Below are positions 12,448-18,609 of a stretch of DNA of 64,000 nucleotides, in pieces; within the stretch, counting starts at the first letter, position 1, and each line of letters starts with the position of its first letter. The position numbers and the translations under genes are program-made. A model generated the notes under the pieces. It saw nothing but the letters and a program-made list of their open reading frames with translations, did not search any database and was not told the DNA's origin. Source of the stretch: Aureimonas sp. AU4 (GTDB taxonomy: Bacteria; Pseudomonadota; Alphaproteobacteria; Rhizobiales; Rhizobiaceae); NCBI RefSeq assembly GCF_001463765.1, contig NZ_BBWK01000017.1, positions 1 to 64,000 of the forward strand, in the 5' to 3' direction.

Positions 12448-15390
<2,943 letters not shown>

Positions 15391-15404
15391 TCCTATCGCA
15401 ATTG

Positions 15405-17297
15405 CTACATAGACAATTTTCGAACGAACTCGGCCAGCGCTCTAAGGTTTTCTTTTGTTTCTTTTGAAAGAGGGATATCAGCACCAGAGACGAGTCGCTC
15501 CTGAAATATACTTAACACCTTTTGCTTATTGATTTTTCCGTCTTTCTCGTTCTGGAGGCCTAATTCCATAATATCTTTCTCGTCTAATAAGTCCTCGATA
15601 ACTTTCCAGCTCGGATTAATTTCTGAAAGCGTTAAAATTTCATCATCCGAAAGGTAGAATTCTTTTTGATACCTCTTCTTTTCTCTTTTCCCGGCATCGT
15701 CGCCATCTAATAAAATTTTTACTGGAAGACCCCACCCCCTATTTAGCGCGATCAACGCACCGAGCGTTCCAGCACCCACTGCCGGAAATGCTACGACCGT
15801 CTTTTTTATTATTCGTTCGGCGGCATAGCGCAATACATAATAGTCAGATTTTCCTTCTAGTATTATGCCAGATTGCTTCACATCGAACTTTGAGGGAAAT
15901 ATTTGTATCTTATCCAAAATAGGCTGGAAATAACTTATTTTAGACGGATTTTCGTGGACGAATTTTCGATATGGAATAGCTTGTACATCGATTGATTGAT
16001 CATCCAGCACACTGAGATCTATTACGCTATCACCAGGCTCGTTTGAGCTGTTTTTAACAATATAAGCCTGCTCTAGCCACTTCGGCTCAATCATGTAATG
16101 ACTATGAGTTGAATAAATTAATATATGCGGGTCCTTCGCTATTTCAGGAAAGCTTTCGATCAGTTTTTGTTGAGCGGCGGAGTGCAAATTGGAAGCAGGC
16201 TCGTCGAACAAAAAGATTGTAGCCGCACCATGCTGTCTTGCCACCCGGAATTGCGTGAACAGCAAAAAGGCGAAGAACCAGCGGAACCCAAGCGATCTAC
16301 TTTCAACATTGTATCGATTGCCGCCCTCCTTTATTCTAAACTGAACATATGCATCATGAAGTATAGCGGGTGCTTCAACGCCTTTTTTGTCGATCCGAGC
16401 CGGCCCTTCGTCAATATCCCACGGTATTATCACCTCTTTTCCGCTTGCATCTTCCCCAAAAATATCGTTCCATTGCTTGAATATATTTGTTGTTACAGTT
16501 TGCGCAGCTCGATCAATTACCTGATCAATCTTTTCTCCTTCTCCAGACGCATTGAATTTGCGATGGAAAGAAGGCCATTCGATCTGAAAATCCGATTTGT
16601 GAATGCGACTCACAATGTGATCAGTTATTTTGTGACCGCGATGATCATAATCTAGTATGTCTTGAAATACTTTACGATAAAATAGGCTTTTACCATCATC
16701 TCTTCCCGACAGGTATATTTTATCCGGAAAGTCGAAAACAAAGGTTAGAAAGTACGCGATCCTCGGCATGAGCGACTCAATCGCATCGTAGGCAAACTTG
16801 AGGTCATTGCCGGATACCTCGAAAAATTTCCGCTGCCCGGTTTTCCGAAGTTTCGTACCGATACTTGCCCTTCTAAAATTCCCCTTGTGGTCACCATTCT
16901 GATATTTGTGAAACTTAGTATATGAGAATACTTCCTCACCCTCCTTGTCGAAGCTGATACTGTTCCCAGTAGTGTCGCGGGCAGTTTTGCAAATCGCAAT
17001 TTTGTCTTCGCTTGTGATCCGTATAGTCGCCGATACACTAATATCCCCGGTGAAGTCAGCAACGGCATATCGAGGGACTAGGTCCTGCACAGCCCCCGAT
17101 CCTGATAGATCGCTTCCCACGATTATTTTAGTATCACTATCTGGCGCGAAGCTATGTATAGCTTCTAGTATCGTAGTTTTACCGCTTTCGTTTAGTCCAA
17201 CTAACGTATGTACTCGAGCATGATTACTTTCCGACAGACCAATATAGGCATCTTTAATACCCTTGAAATTCTGAATTCTAAACCCAATGTAATTCAT
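15405..17297 (-). CDS. AAA ATPase/TOPRIM nuclease, OLD-family-like, foreign origin
   Basis: 630-aa SMC/ABC-type ATPase with a C-terminal TOPRIM domain. Walker A GLNESGKTT (34-42), signature-like SLGFRW (335-340), Walker B FLFDEPAS (363-370, E366), switch histidine H398 in STHSH; TOPRIM Glu E481 (ILEGKSD) and Asp motif LLDGDDAG (529-536). This is the architecture of OLD-type nucleases and of Gabija GajA, which act in phage defence. No UvrD-like helicase partner adjoins it, so a stand-alone class 1-like OLD is the closest guess. Base composition is about 40% GC against about 70% around it, with A/T-ending codons, so recent transfer is very likely. It lies 14 bp beyond uvrB, convergent, and has its own promoter. 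Confidence 0.85.
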   Translation of the reverse strand: MNYIGFRIQNFKGIKDAYIGLSESNHARVHTLVGLNESGKTTILEAIHSFAPDSDTKIIVGSDLSGSGAVQDLVPRYAVADFTGDISVSATIRITSEDKIAICKTARDTTGNSISFDKEGEEVFSYTKFHKYQNGDHKGNFRRASIGTKLRKTGQRKFFEVSGNDLKFAYDAIESLMPRIAYFLTFVFDFPDKIYLSGRDDGKSLFYRKVFQDILDYDHRGHKITDHIVSRIHKSDFQIEWPSFHRKFNASGEGEKIDQVIDRAAQTVTTNIFKQWNDIFGEDASGKEVIIPWDIDEGPARIDKKGVEAPAILHDAYVQFRIKEGGNRYNVESRSLGFRWFFAFLLFTQFRVARQHGAATIFLFDEPASNLHSAAQQKLIESFPEIAKDPHILIYSTHSHYMIEPKWLEQAYIVKNSSNEPGDSVIDLSVLDDQSIDVQAIPYRKFVHENPSKISYFQPILDKIQIFPSKFDVKQSGIILEGKSDYYVLRYAAERIIKKTVVAFPAVGAGTLGALIALNRGWGLPVKILLDGDDAGKREKKRYQKEFYLSDDEILTLSEINPSWKVIEDLLDEKDIMELGLQNEKDGKINKQKVLSIFQERLVSGADIPLSKETKENLRALAEFVRKLSM

Positions 17298-17312
17298 CGT
17301 AACAACCCTTAA

Positions 17313-17340
17313 ATTATAAAATCATCGGCAAATTTAGGAA
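17313..17340 (-). promoter_or_regulatory. promoter of the OLD-like gene
   Basis: Minus strand TATAAT (17318-17313), a perfect sigma-70 -10, with TTCCTA (17340-17335) 16 bp upstream; AAGGG precedes the ATG at 17297. An AT-rich promoter of this kind is unlike the rest of the window. Confidence 0.55.
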
Positions 17341-17355
17341 CACGTATCATTCTAG

Positions 17356-18563
17356 TTAGTAATATTTGTAGACTCGAAGCCAATCCACCACCTCCCAAAA
17401 CACCCGCACATACCCCTCATCCGCCAGCTTCGAGTGCTCGCGCTCGTCCGTGACGTGCTGCACCAACAGGTCCCCGTTCCTCGCCGCCTCCACCGCGTCG
17501 CGGTAGCGCTGCTCCAGGCTCACGAAGGCGGTGGGGTCGTCCTTGGCGTGGAGCGTGACGGTCGGCAGGACGATGCGGCCCGTCAGCTCCGAGTCGTAGC
17601 GCAGGCGCCGCGCGCCCTCCGGGTCGGCGCGAAAGCGCTGGACGCCCCGGTTCAGCGCCTCGTCGTCGGAGGTCCCGGTGTAGCGCACGCCCTCGTTGGT
17701 GAAGGGGTTCCGCCCGTCCAGCCGTTTGTTCACGATGTCGCTGAACGTGTTGGTGGCGAACAGGAGGTGCGAGACCAGCGTGCGCTGCGGCACGCCCGAG
17801 GCCGCGAGGATGTCGTGGAGCCGCCCCGCCTCGGCCTCGGTGCGCTCGTCCGGCCGCTTCGACAGGCCGGTGCATTCCTCCACCCGCGCCTCGAGGTCCC
17901 CGCGCTTCATGGCGGGCGCGCCCTCGGGCAAGCCGCGCCAGAGCTCGTACTGCGTCTCGTCCGGGCGCGGATGGTTGTTGCAGTAATACTGGTAGATGGC
18001 GCGCAGCCCCGCGCGGAACTCGTAGGGCTCCGGCCCGCCCGCCAGCACGCCGCTCGTCAGCACCCGCCGTCGAAGCGCTTCCGTCCGTCGCCCCGGATCG
18101 CATAGAGCTCGTGCGTCTTGGCCGCGACATTGCCGCCCCAGCTCTGCCCGTGGAGGATCGTGAGCCGAGCTTCGCCCAGCACCTCCGGCGCGATCTCGCT
18201 GAGAGCCACCATGTCCTCGGCCGCCATGCGCACGCCGAACCCCTCGCGCCGGTAGTTCGTGGCGGCCCAGGCATAGCCCTCGCGCACCAGAACCGAGAAG
18301 CGCGAGAGGTCCTCGTCGGGATCGTCGAAGCGCGGCGGCGACAGGCGCGGGCCGCCATGGGCGTGGAGGATGGTGACGCCGTTCCAGTTGGCCGGCTTGG
18401 CGAACAGCAGCCACGCGCCGCGCGCGTCCTGCGCCCGGTGGCACACGGCGTCGGTCGGCACGCCCTCGGGGCAGTCCACCCGCTCGGCGGCGCGCGCGTT
18501 CGCGGGAAGACTTGAGAGCCCGAGCATCACGAGCGCCAGTCCACTCCATCCCCGTCGCCGCAT
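17356..18563 (-). pseudogene. secreted alpha/beta-hydrolase, frameshifted
   Basis: The N-terminal half reads from ATG 18563 (good GGGGAG site) through a signal peptide (ending ARA) to the nucleophile elbow GQSWG, then stops at 18057-18059. The C-terminal half continues in another minus-strand frame from about 18070 (VLTSGVLAGG) to 17356. It contains the other expected triad regions (LHAKDDP with Asp; a His in DEREHSKL). Missing one base in the run ggcgggtgctg (minus strand, about 18058-18070) would explain the break. The whole would be about 400 aa, a secreted serine hydrolase/peptidase-like enzyme. The last codons are AT-rich where the foreign gene begins. A sequencing error is possible. Confidence 0.75.
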
Positions 18564-18609
18564 CGCCCCGTCTCCCCTCATGCCCTTGCGGATCTGAGCC
18601 TAGAGGCAA

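Follow-up and report, generated by a model that had tools for sequence, protein, structure and literature searches.

Single-gene OLD proteins that combine an ABC-type ATPase with a TOPRIM domain, such as P2 Old, T. scotoductus 6p74 and E. coli YbjD/OldB, are known as Class 1 OLD proteins, and a gene with the same layout, P0001, lies directly downstream of uvrB in Aureimonas sp. AU4 (genome code G000). We analyzed it in a 64,000-nt stretch of contig NZ_BBWK01000017.1 (the window), whose coordinates are used throughout. P0001 encodes 630 aa compared with the 528-aa chain of 6p74, the sequence similarity between the two is weak, and activity of P0001 against phages is putative. Class 1 is defined by gene context in the available text of PMC10568477. 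Gabija GajA (Class 2) matches the fold of P0001 over its full length (8x5i_D), but P0001 has no adjoining GajB UvrD-like helicase, its neighbors being uvrB and a hydrolase-like gene; Class 3 (retron) OLD proteins need a reverse transcriptase and a non-coding RNA, whereas the P0001 cassette consists of one gene. PARIS shares an AAA_15-type ATPase with P0001, and a fused AriAB (1.4e-197) occupies the same slot in another genome of the family (G037); unlike PARIS, P0001 is a single gene whose AriA match (5.6e-25) is to the ATPase profile only, with AriAB not among the best 25 of 88 families.

The position of P0001 also has described counterparts. In P. aeruginosa, cDHS1 and cDHS2 hold diverse defense systems between fixed core genes and are not bound to any one mobile element; they have median sizes of 26 kb and 6 kb within one species, and mobile genes are detectable in more than half and undetected in 29% and 47%, respectively (PMC10250203, available text). 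The uvrB slot differs from these in holding one module of 1.1–2.25 kb (in the genus) at a site common to many genera. Integrase-less hotspots were also reported by Oliveira et al. 2017, for which double crossover in flanking core genes was proposed (PMC5635113, available text). Those hotspots resemble the uvrB slot in their fast turnover at a fixed spot without a recognizable mobile element, as far as that text describes them, and differ in that the right border gene of the uvrB slot changes between clades while uvrB stays, and in that recombination is presumed here. To judge from the available text on cDHS, these loci are the nearest described analogue that we found. A defense slot at uvrB is not described in the titles and abstracts of open-access PubMed Central (PMC), a search that leaves subscription literature mostly outside. 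The slot is a single-occupancy variant of the known core-gene-flanked defense hotspots, and its address and format are apparently new within the open-access literature.

We consider it likely that P0001 is a stand-alone OLD-like effector occupying an integrase-free, one-module defense slot whose contents have been exchanged repeatedly. The recurrent slot, which was missed by an earlier reading made from the window sequence without database searches (the sequence-only reading), matters more than P0001 itself.

A slot behind uvrB in Aureimonas

The region downstream of uvrB was compared in 21 Aureimonas genomes, where islands recur at the same address with the same anatomy and with different contents in close relatives. 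A uvrB orthologue was found in 21/21 genomes, and in 14 of them an island of low guanine-cytosine (GC) content begins at the uvrB stop codon. The islands measured 1,124–2,248 bp with 40.5–47.4% GC in a segment scan; a segment in G300 (54% GC within a 57% GC stretch) was left out of the count. uvrB is unbroken to its last codon in all 14 island-bearing genomes, and on the other side a convergent gene ends with its stop codon −54 to +1 bp from the right junction (14/14), the borders of the slot being coding ends on both sides in every case. The convergent gene encodes an Arg/Glu/Trp-rich protein in 11/14, another Arg-rich protein in G306, and a hydrolase in G000 and G302; the hydrolase gene was matched in only 2/21 genomes of the genus. 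The start or end of the main open reading frame (ORF) lies 11–46 bp from the stop codon in 8/14 islands, and both orientations occur, with the module on the uvrB strand in five.

No shared sequence was visible among the 14 islands downstream of the uvrB junction. At E 1e-3, the islands matched one another in DNA over just 38 bp, between G000 and G308, and at the protein level the two retrons (28 and 42%) and the G000/G308 pair (33%) were related. In the uvrB tree, the seven genomes without a counted island are separated from the 14 with one by a single branch (support 0.998). The nearest sister of G000 is G302 (UvrB 97%), which carries a different module at the same junction; therefore, one or both of these modules must have been altered since the two lineages separated, in agreement with the recent turnover proposed by the sequence-only reading. 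Close homologues of normal GC at this place in all relatives would have spoken against that proposal, and the uvrB neighborhoods of the 20 other genomes gave a protein-level match to P0001 in G308 alone (33%). The closest pair, G303 and G305 (96.5% uvrB nucleotide identity, the highest between genomes with unrelated modules), carries a retron and a GHKL-type ATPase. A fixed core-gene border with differing defense systems among relatives, by which a core-gene-flanked defense hotspot is recognized, is thus what the genus displays.

Separately, the sequence K(T/S)GRPG(R/Q/K/H) at the C-terminus of UvrB, encoded at 15367–15387 of the window, is nearly invariant across the 21 genus genomes and 40 further genomes of the family; we take it to resemble an AT-hook. 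A match to small-subunit (SSU) rRNA was lacking in 15/21 genus assemblies, including the one-contig G297 and G159, which would fit 9–13 kb Aureimonas plasmids carrying 16S. Among the ten records listed for the 16S gene of G305, six Aureimonas plasmids match at 97.2–97.3% identity and the next stands at 94.4%, pointing to Aureimonas as the genus.

Contents of the slot

The 14 slots hold the following (E values where given):

G000: OLD-like protein (P0001)
G302: PDC-M31A/B pair, 1.9e-75 (A) and 2.6e-9 (B)
G299: Drt6, 3.4e-144
G303 and G079: retron II-A with effector, reverse transcriptase 1.3e-106 and 5.2e-109, in opposite orientations
G307: Drt2, 2.7e-122
G304: dCTP deaminase, 1e-159
G308: OLD-like protein
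G306: HD-domain protein with a DarG/Panacea-like partner
G309: SLFN_AlbA_2 and HATPase_c_4
G305: HATPase_c, under the Pfam cut-off; a 659-aa GHKL-type ATPase
G310: SocA_Panacea and a 267-aa partner
G311: DUF4238
G312: no match; a 399-aa protein

PADLOC at E 1e-5 matched 10/14 genus islands. Only near-full-length matches were counted, because ABC ATPases among the control proteins match PADLOC as well; given these control matches, a match at E 1e-5 was rejected as proof of defense for ATPases. Near-full-length matches to known or candidate defense systems were found in 6/14 genus islands compared with 0/10 control proteins. The ten controls were hand-picked, eight being among ten random picks of which two suspected shadow ORFs were replaced. 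No Pfam transposase or integrase domain was found in the 18 slot proteins scanned.

Several slot proteins have no PADLOC match and are candidate new defense modules: the GHKL-type ATPase (L075:5215-7194), the 399-aa protein without a Pfam match (L081:10134-11333), the DUF4238 protein (L080:10140-11000), a Panacea-type pair (L092:7694-8955), a two-gene unit (L149:6838-8599) and a 369-aa protein (L151:1540-2649).

The slot in the wider family and control regions

Forty further genomes of the family, representing 39 genera (G016 and G119 share one) and drawn from 121, were analyzed. The first 24 came from the 28 non-genus genomes with loci, leaving out G050, G068, G027 and G020 (mostly for short contigs or alignment); 15 were then added by score order down to G033, passing over G022, G086, G089, G029 and G045, together with the lower-scoring G061. 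The GC of up to 1.5 kb downstream had been seen beforehand in the initial 24 genomes and not in the other 16. An island starting less than 1.5 kb from the uvrB stop codon was found in 21/40 genomes, within 60 bp in eight of them and at an offset of 217–1413 bp in the other 13; the islands are about 0.7–2.8 kb in size. The remaining 285,204 bp of these 40 neighborhoods contained one island. When the threshold was relaxed and a different reference GC was used, there were 20 early and 4 late segments. Within the genus, no island was found outside the slot in the 21 uvrB neighborhoods (8–19.5 kb each), and no other island was found, at the same threshold, in 20 × 20 kb (400 kb) of the main contig of the island-bearing G306.

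PADLOC was run on 17 of the 21 family islands (leaving out G023, G046, G071 and G094) and gave a match in 9/17, near-full-length in 5/17. The near-full-length matches were AriAB/PARIS (1.4e-197, G037), dCTP deaminase (2.8e-163), PDC-S28 twice and retron III-A (7.4e-79), and Pfam added a NACHT protein over the cut-off and sub-threshold STAND/AAA matches. PDC-S28 is one 864-aa gene in G090 (L147) and in G100 (L146) is apparently broken into two or more ORFs (the second seen by eye); some occupants of the slot, such as PDC-S28 in G100, may be decaying.

On a coarser criterion, a low-GC run of 600 bp lying no more than about 1.5 kb from the gene end, uvrB ends scored in 12/24 genomes of the family and 2/27 in other alphaproteobacterial families, so the habit is concentrated in Rhizobiaceae. 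The carB end may be a second, less used insertion site. In the eight family genomes concerned (L251–L258), the cargo of the carB ends includes an NsnA-like protein, a gene resembling PDC-M70A next to a dGTPase-like one, and two ORFs whose matches to pAgo profiles are partial.

The island in Aureimonas sp. AU4

The features of the window around the island are as follows:

12448..15390, + strand: uvrB, 980 aa, the constant left border of the slot, with C-terminal KTGRPGR followed by the stop codon
15388..17380, no strand: slot cassette, 42% GC, bounded by the uvrB stop codon on one side and by the 3' end of the convergent hydrolase gene on the other
15405..17297, − strand: OLD-like ATPase/TOPRIM gene P0001, 630 aa, an intact single ORF
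17172..17198, − strand: Walker A GLNESGKTT, residues 34–42, invariant in 12 aligned homologues
16182..16214, − strand: Walker B region FLFDEPASNLH, residues 362–372, with D365, E366, P367, N370, L371 and H372 invariant
15405..15992, − strand: C-terminal region with the predicted TOPRIM domain, residues 436–630, identified by invariant residues and by a model whose fold matches the C-terminal domains of OLD/GajA
15855–15857, 15705–15707 and 15699–15701, − strand: codons of TOPRIM residues E481, D531 and D533
17313..17318, − strand: TATAAT hexamer 5' of the OLD-like gene, without a matching −35 and not among the promoter-scan results
17357..18581, − strand: convergent hydrolase-like gene, the right border, frameshifted at about 18064, with its final residues encoded across the junction, on the side of the cassette

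The low-GC gene beside uvrB that had been read from the sequence is real: the 630-aa ORF is intact and has 42% GC in DNA of about 70% GC. In 500-bp windows, GC was 0.39–0.47 inside P0001 and 0.65–0.74 on either flank, and a maximal-segment scan gave 15388–17402 as the sole low-GC island in the window. Its left edge is the uvrB stop codon TGA (15388–15390), so that the start first read at 15391 was right to within one codon; on the right, similarity to the sister species on the hydrolase gene side picks up again near 17380. ARAGORN found no tRNA in the window, which agrees with the absence of a flanking tRNA noted earlier. The perfect TATAAT promoter claimed for the gene did not hold up, as the hexamer stands alone and the promoter scan of the region, which gave 4 promoter-like sites compared with 3.1 expected from shuffles, placed none at this position. 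A transcription start so near P0001 would give an estimated leader of about 10 nt.

The hydrolase-like gene has a 1-bp deletion at about 18064 relative to the copy in the sister G302, which is an intact 412 aa, and its C-terminus differs from that copy at the cassette junction. The frameshift reflects either a decaying gene or an assembly error.

The P0001 protein

Pfam AAA_15 matched P0001 over residues 6–403 (E 5.1e-23), and the OLD-like_TOPRIM model was sub-threshold (E 0.05); no NCBIfam model reached its cut-off among the best 25 of 29. The profile search against OLD, GajA and AriA suggested by the sequence-only reading gave generic-ATPase or partial PADLOC matches (AriA 5.6e-25, Old 5.4e-15, GajA 3.2e-12), while a full AriAB match did not appear among the best 25 of 88 families. 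Similarity to 6p74 was weak (phmmer E 0.45, profile E 4e-5). In an alignment of 12 sequences, which left out L039 (broken frame) and L040 (a fragment), Walker A (G34–T42), Walker B (D365/E366), H398, E481, D485, D531 and D533 were invariant, so the ATPase motifs and the E...DxD set proposed for TOPRIM were both borne out; a second alignment comprised 10 of these 12 rows. Residues 60–320, which had been thought to define an undescribed OLD subtype, align across all 12 homologues and lie inside the AAA_15 match, and that suggestion is not supported. In known OLD proteins, a dimerization domain is inserted within the ATPase (PMC10568477, available text).

The AlphaFold2 model of P0001 had a mean predicted local distance difference test (pLDDT) value of 78.7 and a predicted TM-score (pTM) of 0.71. 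The first Foldseek matches of the model were OLD 6p74 (3.5e-14) and GajA (1e-13), with low TM-scores of 0.32–0.39. By VIA-align, the ATPase half was nearest SMC/Rad50 heads, and GajA 8x5i_D spanned residues 1–630 (Z 15.9, root-mean-square deviation (rmsd) 10.9, 408 aligned). The C-terminal TOPRIM domain was also modeled alone (pLDDT 82.8). Foldseek with this lone domain gave nothing below 0.001, the best match being a small TOPRIM protein (8.8e-3), and VIA-align ranked OLD/GajA C-terminal domains first (Z 9.3–8.2, 131–145 residues, rmsd 3.6–4.2; for example, 6njx with Z 9.3, rmsd 3.8 and 142 aligned, and 6p74 with Z 8.2, rmsd 4.2 and 131 aligned). A structure prediction without a TOPRIM fold had been named as grounds for dismissing the assignment, and the model supports the fold.

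On the basis of the Pfam match, the invariant residues and the Foldseek and VIA-align results, we accept P0001 as a predicted OLD-like ATPase/TOPRIM protein with a single-gene (Class 1-type) layout, as the sequence-only reading had proposed for this foreign-looking gene. Pfam, the Walker A and B motifs and the SMC/Rad50/OLD folds identify an ABC-type ATPase at the N-terminus; a C-terminal TOPRIM domain with conserved acidic residues is indicated by E481, D485, D531 and D533 and by the model; and the cassette consists of one gene without a helicase or reverse transcriptase partner. P0001 adds a member to the already known Class 1-type OLD proteins.

In E. coli, induction of the lone OLD gene ybjD lowers plaquing, for which the ATPase domain is needed and the TOPRIM domain is dispensable, and phage plaquing on a ybjD knockout is no different, according to the available text of PMC13261556. 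A catalytic role of the TOPRIM domain is therefore not to be assumed. By analogy with OLD proteins, P0001 may act as a stand-alone effector in which the ABC-type ATPase would serve as sensor or gate for a signal set off by phage, and the TOPRIM domain might then cut nucleic acid (DNA or tRNA), with the result that the phage is blocked or the cell killed.

Relatives of P0001 elsewhere

Full-length homologues of P0001 were found in two family genomes (48 and 39% identity) and in nine named or metagenome-assembled genome records (44–51% in the best segment), one of which, L039, is split over two frames; the slot of Aureimonas G308 holds a further homologue with 33% identity. No tblastn match of P0001 was found in phages, and 78 plasmid records matched, all below 60% identity, with the best coverage being 91% at 21% identity. 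uvrB was not found in the fetched DNA around 11 homologue loci, and no recurring neighbor gene was seen in the ORF listings of these loci, inspected by eye without hidden Markov models.

The homologous genes have 34–49% GC in all 11 loci, also where the surroundings have 36–49% GC (L033, L032), and in 10/11 loci their GC is at least 8 points under that of the whole locus, the exception being L033. Low GC was rejected as proof of recent arrival, since the homologues are low in GC even in low-GC surroundings. By eye, homologue L095 sits behind what we take to be lepA and L094 behind a presumed carB, and the frame-broken copy in L039 presumably has typA on one side and lepA on the other. These placements suggest that P0001-like genes may commonly stand behind core genes.

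How modules may be exchanged

The slot behind uvrB would hold one small module, often defense-like, at a time, and this module would be exchanged repeatedly across the genus and family while uvrB stays. We infer that slot modules defend against phage and, with less certainty, that they are exchanged when DNA arriving by an unspecified route recombines homologously within the conserved flanking genes. In the four closest pairs with different modules, the flanks are 94–96% identical in the 250 bp beside each junction, and less so in distant pairs. In an approximately unbiased (AU) test, the flank trees conflicted only weakly, with p 0.021 for the left data against the right topology and p 0.085 for the right data against the left one.

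It is unlikely that a trans-acting recombinase inserts single-module units as site-specific mobile cassettes at the conserved uvrB 3' end, in the way that integrases use gene ends. Such cassettes would fit a left junction that coincides with the uvrB stop codon in 14/14 Aureimonas islands and lies within 60 bp of it in 8/40 family genomes, as well as the compactness of the islands (8/14 with the main ORF edge 11–46 bp from the stop codon) and the presence of modules in both orientations (5/14 on the uvrB strand). Yet the islands share no end sequence; when the uvrB tail (14, 20 and 26 nt, both strands) was compared with the DNA near right ends, its top match was in every case at or below the same-genome control maximum, and attachment-site repeats were rejected on this ground. 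The right ends match the stop codon of whichever gene converges, and the offset of 217–1413 bp in 13/21 family islands is not predicted by a strict attachment site in uvrB. Integron cassettes were likewise rejected, with the integron integrase (TIGR02249) over its cut-off in 0/21 genus genomes, in a search that did not cover attC sites or other trans-acting recombinases; matches below the cut-off were present in all 14 control genomes too and were taken as ordinary tyrosine recombinases.

Insertion could instead be ordinary and occur anywhere, with selection keeping inserts in harmless convergent gaps and uvrB not being special. That islands abut two convergent gene ends and leave uvrB undisrupted is what this would produce, and low-GC runs at carB 3' ends in 8/30 family genomes also show that uvrB is not unique. 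We regard ordinary insertion as quite improbable: it sits poorly with the absence of another island in 400 kb of G306, in the window or in the 21 uvrB neighborhoods, and with the 21 islands in the first 1.5 kb of the family neighborhoods compared with one in the other 285 kb. Still more improbable, to a high degree, is that P0001 serves as an accessory of DNA repair, linked in function to uvrB, and not as a defense gene. It adjoins uvrB and has an ATPase fold of the SMC/Rad50/RecF type, but it lies on the opposite strand, other genomes hold unrelated genes at this place, retrons and a deaminase included, and no uvrB occurs in the fetched DNA around the 11 homologues elsewhere.

Several observations weigh against an exchanged one-module defense slot, our preferred explanation. 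The sample has one genome per species, mostly drafts. PADLOC gave no match in 4/14 genus islands and 8/17 scanned family islands, two of the ten control window proteins (both ABC ATPases) also match PADLOC, and the matches of P0001 itself are of the ATPase sort that ordinary ABC ATPases give. With low-GC runs also at carB ends (8/30), the uvrB slot is not unique. For G303/G305/G310, a grouping chosen after seeing the identities, the left flank gives a different tree from the right, but the right data did not reject the left topology in the AU test (p 0.085). Islands go together with gene transfer agent genes in the genus and not across the family: GTA_TIM was found in 16/21 genus genomes, all 14 island-bearing ones included, and the five genomes that lack it belong to the one part of the uvrB tree where islands are absent, whereas in the family an island occurs in 5/6 genomes without GTA_TIM compared with 16/34 with it. 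A gene transfer agent was rejected as a required carrier, given the islands in 5/6 family genomes without GTA_TIM. As a separate observation, the GTA_TIM gene of AU4 (G000:C54:44854-45762) contains an in-frame TAG, which none of the matches in the remaining 15 genus genomes with this family shows.

Implications of the slot

A fixed address reused by many genera means that defense genes can be discovered by reading the DNA behind uvrB, and the slot yields compact candidates without a PADLOC match, for example, the modules of G305, G312, G311 and G310. The slot also suits the study of how defense genes move without an integrase, because its borders are conserved, its contents differ and its modules are small enough to test. 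A broader proposal, which we hold to be doubtful, is that Rhizobiaceae keep a single-occupancy port behind uvrB, and perhaps carB, into which small defense modules are swapped between relatives by a cassette mechanism without a self-encoded mobility gene. If such a port is true, the slot modules without an assigned function would be new defense systems.

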